DNA from: Gammaproteobacteria bacterium
GTDB taxonomy: Bacteria; Pseudomonadota; Gammaproteobacteria; Enterobacterales; Alteromonadaceae
Length of the DNA: 64,000 bases
Assembly: GCA_018222985.1 (NCBI GenBank)
Contig: JAAEZG010000003.1
Location: 62,001-126,000 of the forward strand
Direction: 5' to 3'
Shown piece by piece: positions 3,318 through 7,198 of this stretch; position 1 is the stretch's first letter, and each line of letters begins with the position of its first letter. The notes under the pieces are model-generated. The model was not told the origin of the DNA. It ran no database searches and saw only the letters and a program-made list of their open reading frames with translations. Both the position numbers and the translations under genes were made by a program.

Positions 3318-3866
3318 TTAACCGCCATGCCCGTTGTAGCTAGCATGCATACGACGAATGTGCCCTTCAATTTCATCACGAAGCTGTTTAGGTTCTAAAA
3401 CTTCTGCGTGCTCACCACAACTAAGTATCCACGCCACGAGTTCATTACTAATGGCCACGGTTGCTTTGACAATAATGTGTTCGCTATTGGTTTCGATAAC
3501 TTGCTGCGGATGTAACGGGTTGTTCGTCAGAAAGTTTGATAGGCTGGCTGCACACTTTAGTTTTACTTGCGCAGCGGCACTCGGACGTGCGTGGTCGGCC
3601 AAATTTAAAAACGGCAGCTGCGGTGCGCTCTGAGCAATACTCCAGCCATAGGGCTTCGAGCGCTCATCCGTGGTTAACGGGAACACTTCTGACAGCTCAA
3701 TCAAATTGCGCTGTATAGTGCGAACACTTACATCAATACCTTGTTCATAAAGGCGTTGTTGTAATGTCTTCGCGTCAACTTTATGTGGCTGCCGAGGCAC
3801 GTGGCGTAACATCATTAGGTATCTTAATACGCTCTGCACTGACTTGCTCCTTGTCATCTGTGTCAC
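3318..3866 (-). CDS. WYL-family transcriptional regulator lacking the WYL core
   Basis: The N-terminal 60 residues form the winged-helix HTH typical of YafY/WYL regulators (VSVRTIQRNLIELSEVFPL), followed by the conserved DERSKPYGW stretch. In usual family members of about 310-330 residues, the Sm-like WYL ligand-binding domain comes next. Here the sequence passes after about 30 residues directly into what looks like the C-terminal WCX extension (VAWILSCGEHAEVLEPKQLRDEI, in part). No W-Y-L signature is visible. At 182 residues the protein is therefore HTH plus WCX only. The frame is intact, with a GTG start at 3866 or an ATG at 3857. No target gene can be named. Confidence 0.75.
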   Translation of the reverse strand: MTQMTRSKSVQSVLRYLMMLRHVPRQPHKVDAKTLQQRLYEQGIDVSVRTIQRNLIELSEVFPLTTDERSKPYGWSIAQSAPQLPFLNLADHARPSAAAQVKLKCAASLSNFLTNNPLHPQQVIETNSEHIIVKATVAISNELVAWILSCGEHAEVLEPKQLRDEIEGHIRRMHASYNGHGG

Positions 3867-4034: not shown

Positions 4035-4331
4035 ATGACTCGCAATCTATTTTTATTATCTGCAGTAGTTGCCACTACTTTTGTTATTACTCAGCCTGCA
4101 CTGGCGCAATCACAGTCGGCACAACAAGGGCAACAGACTGCTGAACAAGCCAAGCAAGAAGCGGCAAAGAAAAAAGCTGAACGCGACGCTCTGCGCGAAA
4201 AAATGAAAGCAGAGAAAGAAGCTTTACAAAAACAACGTGCTGAACAAAGTGAAAAATTAAAAGCTAAGTCATCGGATGAGAAGAAATCTGACGATAAAAC
4301 CAAAAAAAAGGACGATAATGGCGATAATTAA
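4035..4331 (+). CDS. Small secreted Lys/Glu-rich coiled-coil protein
   Basis: The 98-residue protein has a signal peptide (hydrophobic residues 5-22, likely cleavage after ALA near residue 24). The rest is highly charged: Gln/Ala-rich at first, then a Lys/Glu/Arg heptad-like helix (about 40-75) and an Asp/Lys tail. It is predicted to be periplasmic or secreted and helical. A ribosome-binding site AGGAG lies 9 bases before the ATG. No family is recognised. The charged composition resembles many unrelated low-complexity proteins, so similarity searches would be weak. The broken DUF3667 gene follows 23 bases downstream. Confidence 0.7.
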   Translation: MTRNLFLLSAVVATTFVITQPALAQSQSAQQGQQTAEQAKQEAAKKKAERDALREKMKAEKEALQKQRAEQSEKLKAKSSDEKKSDDKTKKKDDNGDN

Positions 4332-4354: not shown

Positions 4355-4952
4355 GTGGAACAATTAGCGTCAAATGAGCAGCAATGTTTAAATTGCCAGC
4401 AGCCTCTGCAAGGTGAGTATTGTCACCACTGCGGGCAACATCACCGGGTTTACGTTCGCAGCATATTCGCCGTACTCGGCGACTTAATGGGCGAACTGGG
4501 CCACTGGGACTCACGATTTTATCGCACCTTGCGAGGGTTGATTTTGCGGCCGGGGTTTCTCTCACGAGAATTTATGGCAGGCAAGCACGTTGCCTATGTA
4601 CCGCCATTACGGCTTTATTTCTTTATTTCTTTAATCGCTTTCGTAATTTTCTCGGCCGCCATTGATATTGAGGTCGTCTCGAATAATTCTGACCCTATCT
4701 CGGTGGAAGAACCAAGTGGCGCGGTAGAAGTTATGACGCCCGAAGACATGCGCATGGACTTGCCTTTTTTACCCGAAGCCGAGCAAACTCGAATTAACGA
4801 GCGCCTTCGCTATTTAACGAAGAACCCTGACTTGTTTGTGAAAAGGCTGGCTAGTCACTACCTTTAAGTTCATGGTTTCTGGGTTGATCTACATAATGTT
4901 ATTGCTATTTGCCTTCGTCGGCATGGTGATTTATAGCGTTGCCAGCGCATAA
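4355..4952 (+). pseudogene. DUF3667 membrane protein, broken by an internal out-of-frame deletion
   Basis: The intact 5' part (GTG start, 170 codons to a stop at 4867) has an N-terminal zinc ribbon (C11-x2-C14-x8-C23-x2-C26), then a segment typical of DUF3667 ending in one membrane helix, and a polar loop through NPDLFVKRL. The frame then shifts. From about 4842 another frame reads GWLVTTFKFMVSGLIYIMLL and runs to a stop at 4952, which resembles the C-terminal membrane helix of full-length DUF3667 proteins. The central membrane helices between the two parts are absent. The simplest reading is a deletion with its junction near 4841-4850 that also shifted the frame. The 170-residue product would lack most of its membrane domain. 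Confidence 0.75.
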
Positions 4953-5046
4953 GATGTATTGTGGTAGGGTTTGTTGAACTTATTGTGCAGTATATACTTA
5001 GCATTAATGTGGTTTAACAGCCCGTATATTTAAGGATGAAAACGCA

Positions 5047-5934
5047 ATGCACGTGGATACCCTTGTCACGTTACCAAATCTTCCCGGTATGTTTGTGCGC
5101 TCGTTATTTACCGTCGCACGCAATGGCCAAGATGCAGCAGAAGCAGACGTACTGAATGCAGAGTTCAGTGCGCCGCCGTTTTCAGCCGAATTAGTTCAGC
5201 GCTACCACGATGCCTTTGGTGGTTTTGTTAGCCCATTACCATTAACGCTTATTTACTGTTTGGCGCAGCGCGTTCACCTAGCCCAAATGCTGGGCGAACA
5301 CTTTCCGTGGCCTGCTCCGGGCCTTGTGCATGTCAGTAACCGTATTGAACAGCACCAACAGCTTGACGCCGAAGAGGGCTTTCACCTTAAAGCATCTATC
5401 AAAGTTCCAGCACGTGGCCCAAAAGTATCGCCGCGCCGTTTGCGCCCTGTTTTCACGGTAGAGTTTTGGCAGTCGGGGCAGCATGTTGCAACCTGCATTA
5501 GTGAATATCAAGTCATGCCGAAACAGCCCGAGCGCCCGCGCAAAGCAAAAGAAACGAAAGTGGTTGATGCGCCAGATGGCGATTGGCAATGCATGAATAC
5601 GTGGCAGCTTGATGCACAAACAAGCCGCAGTTATGCACGCTTATCCGGCGACTTTAACCCCATTCATTTACACCCGTTTTTATCGCGCTGGTTTGGTTTT
5701 GATAAGCCAATTATTCATGGCATGTACATGTCAGCACGGGCGCAGGCAGAAATTGAGCGTAGCGTGAAGCAGCCAGTTACGGCCATTGACGTGACATTTA
5801 AACGCCCAGTTCCGTTGCCAGCAAAGGTATCACTGTGGCACTGTCAAACCGACCCGAACACTGGGAAATATCAAGTGTGCGGCGCTGAAGACAACCTTCA
5901 GCGCCTTGAAGGTACCGTTACTTGGGCGGTTTAA
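5047..5934 (+). CDS. MaoC-like hotdog dehydratase domain protein
   Basis: The protein has 295 residues. Its C-terminal half carries a MaoC-type (R)-hydratase signature: LSGDFNPIHLHP (about 199-210), with the Asp/His pair used for hydrating or dehydrating 2-enoyl-CoA, followed by KPIIHGMYM. The N-terminal half, with a proline-rich PGMFVRSLF start, looks like a second, degenerate hotdog fold. A role in fatty-acid or polyhydroxyalkanoate acyl-CoA metabolism is likely, but the substrate cannot be read. The 3' end overlaps the convergent oxidoreductase gene by 17 bases. Confidence 0.8.
   Translation: MHVDTLVTLPNLPGMFVRSLFTVARNGQDAAEADVLNAEFSAPPFSAELVQRYHDAFGGFVSPLPLTLIYCLAQRVHLAQMLGEHFPWPAPGLVHVSNRIEQHQQLDAEEGFHLKASIKVPARGPKVSPRRLRPVFTVEFWQSGQHVATCISEYQVMPKQPERPRKAKETKVVDAPDGDWQCMNTWQLDAQTSRSYARLSGDFNPIHLHPFLSRWFGFDKPIIHGMYMSARAQAEIERSVKQPVTAIDVTFKRPVPLPAKVSLWHCQTDPNTGKYQVCGAEDNLQRLEGTVTWAV
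5881..5905. repeat. 10-bp perfect inverted repeat at the end of the MaoC-like gene
   Basis: GGCGCTGAAG and CTTCAGCGCC pair perfectly around a 5-base loop (ACAAC). The hairpin lies inside the coding sequence just before the overlapping ends of two convergent genes. There is no T-tract on either side. It may slow or end transcription arriving from the minus-strand gene, or protect mRNA 3' ends. Confidence 0.5.
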
Positions 5935-7198
5935 GCCGCTCAATCCCCATAAAGCGCAGCGAAATTTTTTCGTAAATTGGCTCTGAAGTACCGCGCCAAA
6001 CTTTGTACATAAAGTATTTTTCAAAAGCCACTTTCGCCCAATGAACCCAACGCCCGCTGCCGGTCCAATTACGGTTACGCGGCGGGTTTTGTGGAATTGC
6101 CAAAAAAGCCGCGCCAGTATTCCCCATGTCAGCCAAGCATAATGCGCTTAATGTTGGTTCCACCAAGGTATCGCTCTGAGCCATCAAGGCTTTAATATTC
6201 TCAACAATGGCCGATGTCATAGACTCTATCATTAACCCAGTTTTTGGGGCTCCAACAGGTACTGGCGTTTCTTCAATGGGAGCGATAGCCACGCACACGC
6301 CAGCGGCGAAAATATTTGGATACTTCGGCGAGCGCTGGTGTTTATCGGTGACCACAAAACCTTTCGGGTTACATAAGCCAGGTACCGCCGCAACAGCTGG
6401 CGAACCTTTAAATGGCGGCAAAAACATCGCATGCTTATAGGTCAGTTGCTGCGTTTTTAGCACCTGCCCCTGCGCATCGTGCTCTTCAAAATGACAGTGA
6501 CTATCGGCAAACTCAGTGACTTTGGCGTTACAAATCCACTTAATGCCATGCTCGCGGAACTTGTGTTCCATAAACCCTTTTGAATCGCCAACACCGCCTA
6601 ATCCCATATGGCCAATATAGGGTTCTGGGGTGACAAAAGTGATAGGCACTTGGTCACGAATTTTTCGTTTTCTAAGTTCGTACTCTAATGACAATACGTA
6701 CTCGTAAGCTGGGCCAAAGCAACTTGCACCTGGCAACGCGCCAATCAGCACAGAGCCTGGGTTTTGGTACAACGCTTGTACTTCTTCATAGGCCTTCAGC
6801 GCATGATCAACGGTGCAAACAGACTGACTACCACCCACGTCAGGGCCGGCGCCAGGTATGCTCTCCCAAGCCAATTTAGGCCCAGTACATAACACCAAAT
6901 AGTCATAGCTAATTTCTTCACCAGAATTCAGCTGTAACGTGTTTTCGTTGGCGCTTATGGTTTTTACACCGGCAGCCGAGAAATGAATATCACGCTTGTG
7001 AAATAACTCGCCAATGGGCATAACGACGTCTTCGCGCTTGCGCGAACCCAAAGCCACCCAAGGGTTCGAAGGCACAAAGTTAAACTCGCTGCCTTCACCA
7101 ATCACCATAATATCGGTGCCTTTTGCTAGCTTTTCGCGCAACTCGTACGCAACTGACACGCCACCGAGCCCAGCGCCAACCACGACTACTTTAGTCAT
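5918..7198 (-). CDS. FAD-dependent oxidoreductase, sulfide:quinone oxidoreductase family
   Basis: The protein has 426 residues. It opens with the dinucleotide-binding motif VVVGAGLGGVSVA and has the second FAD contact region YDYLVLCTGPKL. Cysteines in SVCTVDHA and GASCFGPAYEY fit positions used by sulfide:quinone oxidoreductases for sulfide capture. These peripheral membrane enzymes oxidise sulfide to polysulfide or sulfur and reduce ubiquinone. The C-terminal region, with a Trp/Tyr-rich KVAFEKYFMYKVWRG stretch, would supply the membrane contact. A general type II NADH dehydrogenase-like role is the alternative. It overlaps the MaoC-like gene by 17 bases tail to tail. Confidence 0.85.
   Translation of the reverse strand: MTKVVVVGAGLGGVSVAYELREKLAKGTDIMVIGEGSEFNFVPSNPWVALGSRKREDVVMPIGELFHKRDIHFSAAGVKTISANENTLQLNSGEEISYDYLVLCTGPKLAWESIPGAGPDVGGSQSVCTVDHALKAYEEVQALYQNPGSVLIGALPGASCFGPAYEYVLSLEYELRKRKIRDQVPITFVTPEPYIGHMGLGGVGDSKGFMEHKFREHGIKWICNAKVTEFADSHCHFEEHDAQGQVLKTQQLTYKHAMFLPPFKGSPAVAAVPGLCNPKGFVVTDKHQRSPKYPNIFAAGVCVAIAPIEETPVPVGAPKTGLMIESMTSAIVENIKALMAQSDTLVEPTLSALCLADMGNTGAAFLAIPQNPPRNRNWTGSGRWVHWAKVAFEKYFMYKVWRGTSEPIYEKISLRFMGIERLKPPK

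Follow-up and report, generated by a model that had tools for sequence, protein, structure and literature searches.

The reading frame at positions 4355–4867 of the plus strand is very probably a pseudogene of a single-copy DUF3667 gene, broken by an out-of-frame deletion, and one of several losses of this gene in the genus. The window, as the term is used here, is the whole 64,000-nucleotide stretch of DNA from a marine gammaproteobacterium that was analyzed. Bacterial pseudogenes formed by out-of-frame deletion have conserved flanks, a frame-breaking deletion and intact relatives. The window copy shares these three traits, but differs in that three of three sister species have been hit separately. 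As a pseudogene it is ordinary; that three sisters separately broke a strongly constrained gene is mildly surprising.

The remnant and the missing core

In the list of open reading frames the remnant has a GTG start and 170 codons, the last of which, before the stop, lie past the break and out of the ancestral frame. Its translation contains the cysteine pairs of a zinc ribbon, C11/C14 and C23/C26 (4385–4432, plus strand, as are the other parts of the gene), which are invariant in all 12 aligned full-length relatives. A profile match to PF12412 (DUF3667) follows at 4508–4642, covering residues 52–96 with an E-value of 2.9e-17 and 62.4 bits, which passes the curated cut-off of 27. The first helix, presumably a membrane helix, was placed at 4616–4666 by alignment with helix 87–108 in a model of an intact relative, and its ends are estimates. 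Comparison with relatives puts the break, an out-of-frame deletion of about 302–311 bp, at 4838–4842. From there the +1 frame, out of frame with the start codon, runs from 4842 to 4952; its 36 codons, KGWLVTTFKFMVSGLIYIMLLLFAFVGMVIYSVASA, followed by a stop at 4950–4952, align with the last helix of full-length orthologues. Chance likeness is excluded because homology is present on either side of the break. The PF12412 profile gives one match in the genome to which the window belongs, and no second DUF3667 match there.

The anchors that flank the break are separated by 25 bases in the window, by 336 in P. donghaiensis, which has the nearest long copy, and by 327 in G006, a genome of the genus with an intact gene. 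The missing length is 311 bp by the first comparison and 302 bp by the second; neither is a multiple of three, and the lesion is therefore frame-disrupting. The preliminary description had placed the zinc-ribbon N-terminus and the C-terminal helix in different frames, with the central helices missing and the junction near 4841–4850. The open frame, the profile match and the aligned +1 frame bear out the first point, and three long helices of the model described below fall in the gap; the break itself is real but lies slightly to the left of the proposed junction.

The locus is marked upstream by the gene for a 98-residue Lys-rich protein (4035–4331, plus strand; reading frame list and genus search) and downstream by that for a MaoC-like dehydratase (5047–5934, plus strand; PF01575), which also served as the yardstick for dN/dS. 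The Lys-rich protein has a signal-like start and has matches in 24 of the 26 genomes of the genus sample, with or without an adjoining DUF3667 gene; against known families it gave weak matches below the cut-offs only. A GTG start and a short leader after the Lys-rich gene (23 bases in the window) are common to the window, P. woesei and P. donghaiensis. The G006 gene has an ATG start about 107 bases after the Lys-rich gene. On the minus strand at 3318–3866 the window also encodes a 182-residue HTH-like protein with a match to the WCX domain and none to WYL. This gene was considered as a further internal deletion and rejected, as tblastn matches in other genomes of the genus cover nearly its whole length at 44–95% identity; to judge from these sequences, it looks like a conserved short form.

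The AlphaFold2 model of the intact relative, L003, has a mean pLDDT of 69.5, with long helices predicted at residues 87–108, 192–210, 218–251, 253–285 and 289–321, which, to judge from their sequence, probably sit in the membrane. On this model the window copy would lack counterparts of three of the five (192–210, 218–251 and 253–285) and would retain those of helices 87–108 and 289–321, in two different frames. The deletion also removed a central core with conserved His/Glu and Gln/Lys/Tyr motifs, YxEHLxVxLHxHxF and QKxxYxQxW, which have many invariant or nearly invariant columns in the alignment of the 12 full-length relatives; the W of the second motif is retained. The full-length orthologues of Pseudidiomarina and Idiomarina share with the window copy the zinc ribbon, the PF12412 domain, the first and last helices, the latter out of frame in the window, and the position beside the Lys-rich gene, and in G006 beside the MaoC gene too.

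Foldseek comparison of the model with the PDB gave seven matches with E-values of 10 or less, of which none reached E ≤ 0.001, and NCBIfam (E ≤ 0.01) had no family for either the intact relative or the window protein. Given the mean pLDDT and the lack of a PDB match at E ≤ 0.001, no function can be drawn from the fold. Structure, family and literature searches yielded no function for the DUF3667 family, which appears as a label in a table of PMC8687355. Among the matches listed for DUF3667, for Pseudidiomarina pseudogenes and comparative genomics, and for Idiomarina gene loss, no title concerned the window gene.

The locus in sister species and in the genus

The genus sample of 26 genomes includes 23 of good quality and three of lower quality (G018, G019 and G020). 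PF12412 was found in 17, all among the good-quality genomes and with a single match each. Fourteen of these have open frames of 296–357 amino acids; two of them, G015 and G017, are counted as intact from open-frame length alone (320 and 348) and were left out of the set of 12 orthologues used for alignments and distances. The other three, the window's genome, G025 and G004, are broken. G025 and G004 are referred to as P. woesei and P. donghaiensis, respectively, with which they are identical over the compared stretches. A comparison with full-length relatives, as the preliminary description had proposed, thus reveals 14 long frames and, in G006, an intact gene between the same two neighbours. 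The same description held that relatives with the 170-residue form under purifying selection would speak against a loss of function; none of the other 16 genomes with a match has this form.

PF12412 had no match in six good-quality genomes (G005, G009, G010, G013, G014 and G022) or in the three lower-quality ones. Between the matches to the Lys-rich and MaoC genes there are 143 to 223 bases in G009, G010, G013 and G022, and about 8 kb in G014, where both are on one contig. G005 has a different arrangement, with an oxidoreductase gene between the MaoC and Lys-rich genes (L095, G005:C1:2823636-2825037); by eye, this gene resembles the gene at window positions 5918–7198.

The broken copies of P. 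woesei and P. donghaiensis are the same gene as that in the window, with the same neighbours and an apparently recent inactivation, but the lesions differ. In P. woesei 550 bp are gone relative to P. donghaiensis, from the loop to past the stop codon, and the ends of the deletion have a very short TTGT-like similarity. In the P. donghaiensis gene codon 51 is a stop, and 46 bp are also missing, between two copies of GCGGCT that are still present in P. woesei. No lesion is common to the window and either sister. This looks like a gene that the group keeps discarding, as the two species nearest to that of the window among the genomes compared each broke it differently.

A tree of RecG and MaoC (24 genomes, 1000 columns; G018 and G019 omitted for a split RecG, G017 placed by MaoC alone) groups the window with P. 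woesei and P. donghaiensis at a support of 100, the latter two as sisters (98) and G006 next (82). Counting losses only, about six or seven are needed on this tree: seven as it stands, or six with the node of support 82 rearranged. In the wider DUF3667 family four short-framed matches were inspected. Three look interrupted, L105 (about 773–1634) and L103 (about 687–1278) by a lone in-frame stop each and L102 (minus strand, about 685–1554 from its other end) by a possible frame change; L104, the fourth, is situated at the end of a contig. These interrupted matches hint that genes of the family are often lost.

Constraint, timing and alternative explanations

Over the first 87–88 codons dN/dS was 0.038 for window–donghaiensis, 0.023 for window–woesei and 0.018 for donghaiensis–woesei (dN and dS of 0.049/1.29, 0.048/2.10 and 0.013/0.72). 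The corresponding values for MaoC were 0.040, 0.028 and 0.049 (0.063/1.58, 0.059/2.13 and 0.034/0.70). In most pairs with the window dS is saturated or nearly so, and their ratios are rough. Since the N-terminal ratios are as low as those of MaoC, the gene was apparently under much the same constraint as its neighbour over most of the period following the species split, and the losses therefore look recent. Inactivation in a common ancestor of the three sisters was rejected, given the low donghaiensis–woesei ratio and the absence of a shared coding lesion.

The N-terminal part of the window copy is 91% identical to that of P. donghaiensis over 76 codons. Excess distance, that is, distance to 11 outgroups beyond that of intact G006, was 0.08 for this part of the window copy (95% interval 0.019 to 0.152), compared to 0.018 (−0.026 to 0.060) for P. 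donghaiensis and 0.024 (−0.027 to 0.072) for P. woesei. There was no acceleration in the 35-column tail of the window copy (−0.026; −0.143 to 0.109), in the 130 columns of core and tail that are out of frame in P. donghaiensis (0.013; −0.042 to 0.066) or in the tail of the latter alone (0.026; −0.094 to 0.145). The P. woesei loop was misaligned, and its loop and core values were left out. At 43 N-terminal columns invariant in the 12 intact sequences the window copy has changed at three, one of them common to both sisters, and P. woesei and P. donghaiensis at one each; intact sequences left out in turn had 0 to 2 changes in 43–45 columns. These sequence comparisons give a weak sign of relaxed constraint on the window remnant, and its loss is perhaps the oldest of the three.

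The strong conservation of the N-terminal part between species could be taken to mean that the window's species and P. woesei still use a truncated module of zinc ribbon, DUF3667 domain and one helix as a small functional membrane protein, with only the core discarded. Neither copy has lost its start codon, its zinc ribbon, the PF12412 domain or the first helix, after which both come to an end. The end points differ, however, and the window N-terminal part shows excess change over the intact copy. In P. donghaiensis, in which the stop at codon 51 removes the first helix, the N-terminal part and the out-of-frame core and tail are equally conserved, so that conservation may reflect past rather than present use. 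A working short form is improbable on this evidence. More improbable still is an assembly or sequencing artefact, in which the gene would be intact in the window's species and its middle lost by the assembler. The genome assembly has 14 contigs and a completeness of 94%, and a collapsed repeat would leave one copy, which makes the absence of a repeat in the window less than decisive. Nevertheless, there are no direct repeats of at least 14 bases in 4601–5100, every 21-mer around the junction occurs once in the window, no long repeat is visible by eye between the matching flanks of P. donghaiensis, and the same gene is decayed in two further assemblies, those of P. woesei and P. donghaiensis. 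The preliminary description had left the choice between recent loss and artefact open; the intact G006 copy, the long frames in 14 of 17 genomes and the different lesions of the two sisters favor recent loss, and the missing repeats and decayed sister assemblies make an artefact unlikely. Translational frameshifting at the junction would join the two pieces, both of which are open, the second frame directly following the first, into a shortened protein of two helices. The junction was made by a deletion, however, it is not found in the other 16 genomes of the genus with a match, and the joined product would be without the three helices and the conserved core; it is hard to give this explanation any real weight.

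A recent pseudogene thus stands as the best explanation. As the comparison with relatives shows, a deletion of about 0.3 kb, of a length not divisible by three, took out the central helices and shifted the last helix out of frame. The translatable remainder consists of a zinc ribbon and a single helix, presumably of the membrane, and since it is without the conserved core, normal function has presumably been lost. In the two sisters, very short repeats at the deletion ends, clearer in P. donghaiensis than in P. woesei, suggest a slippage-type deletion. The gene was probably dispensable in the recent niches of these species, since it was broken separately in both sisters and is absent from six good-quality genomes.

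Possible causes and meaning of repeated loss

That three of three sister species lost one gene exceeds the expectation for evenly spread pseudogenes. PMC13272253 tabulates 14 genomes with 2 to 44 annotated pseudogenes each, on average about 19 among some 2,600 coding sequences. By our own arithmetic from these tabulated counts, evenly spread losses would leave both sisters also broken in about 5 of 100,000 cases. Selection may have favored the losses, for example if the membrane protein lets in a phage or a toxic compound, or if it carries a cost in a recent habitat common to the species, which would be compatible with the pseudogene reading. Separate lesions in all three sisters, in a gene under constraint as strong as that on its neighbour, are in favor of this idea, but genes vary widely in dispensability, a loss-prone gene, as the six good-quality genomes with no match would indicate, gives the same pattern without selection, and the pseudogene rate derives from annotated counts in other genomes. 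Selected loss is therefore a possible but rather unlikely addition. The gene may be unusually dispensable, in line with its absence from other genomes of the genus, or its loss may have been favored. The fuller proposal, that selection recently and separately switched off a strongly constrained DUF3667 membrane protein in three or more marine species of one clade because it had become harmful, for example by giving a phage or a toxic compound a way into the cell, is a little more doubtful again.

A lone pseudogene matters little. Repeated recent loss among sister species offers a natural knock-out set, with an intact relative for comparison, from which the role of DUF3667 proteins might be probed. 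If the losses were indeed selected, they would give a first clue to the function of this protein family.
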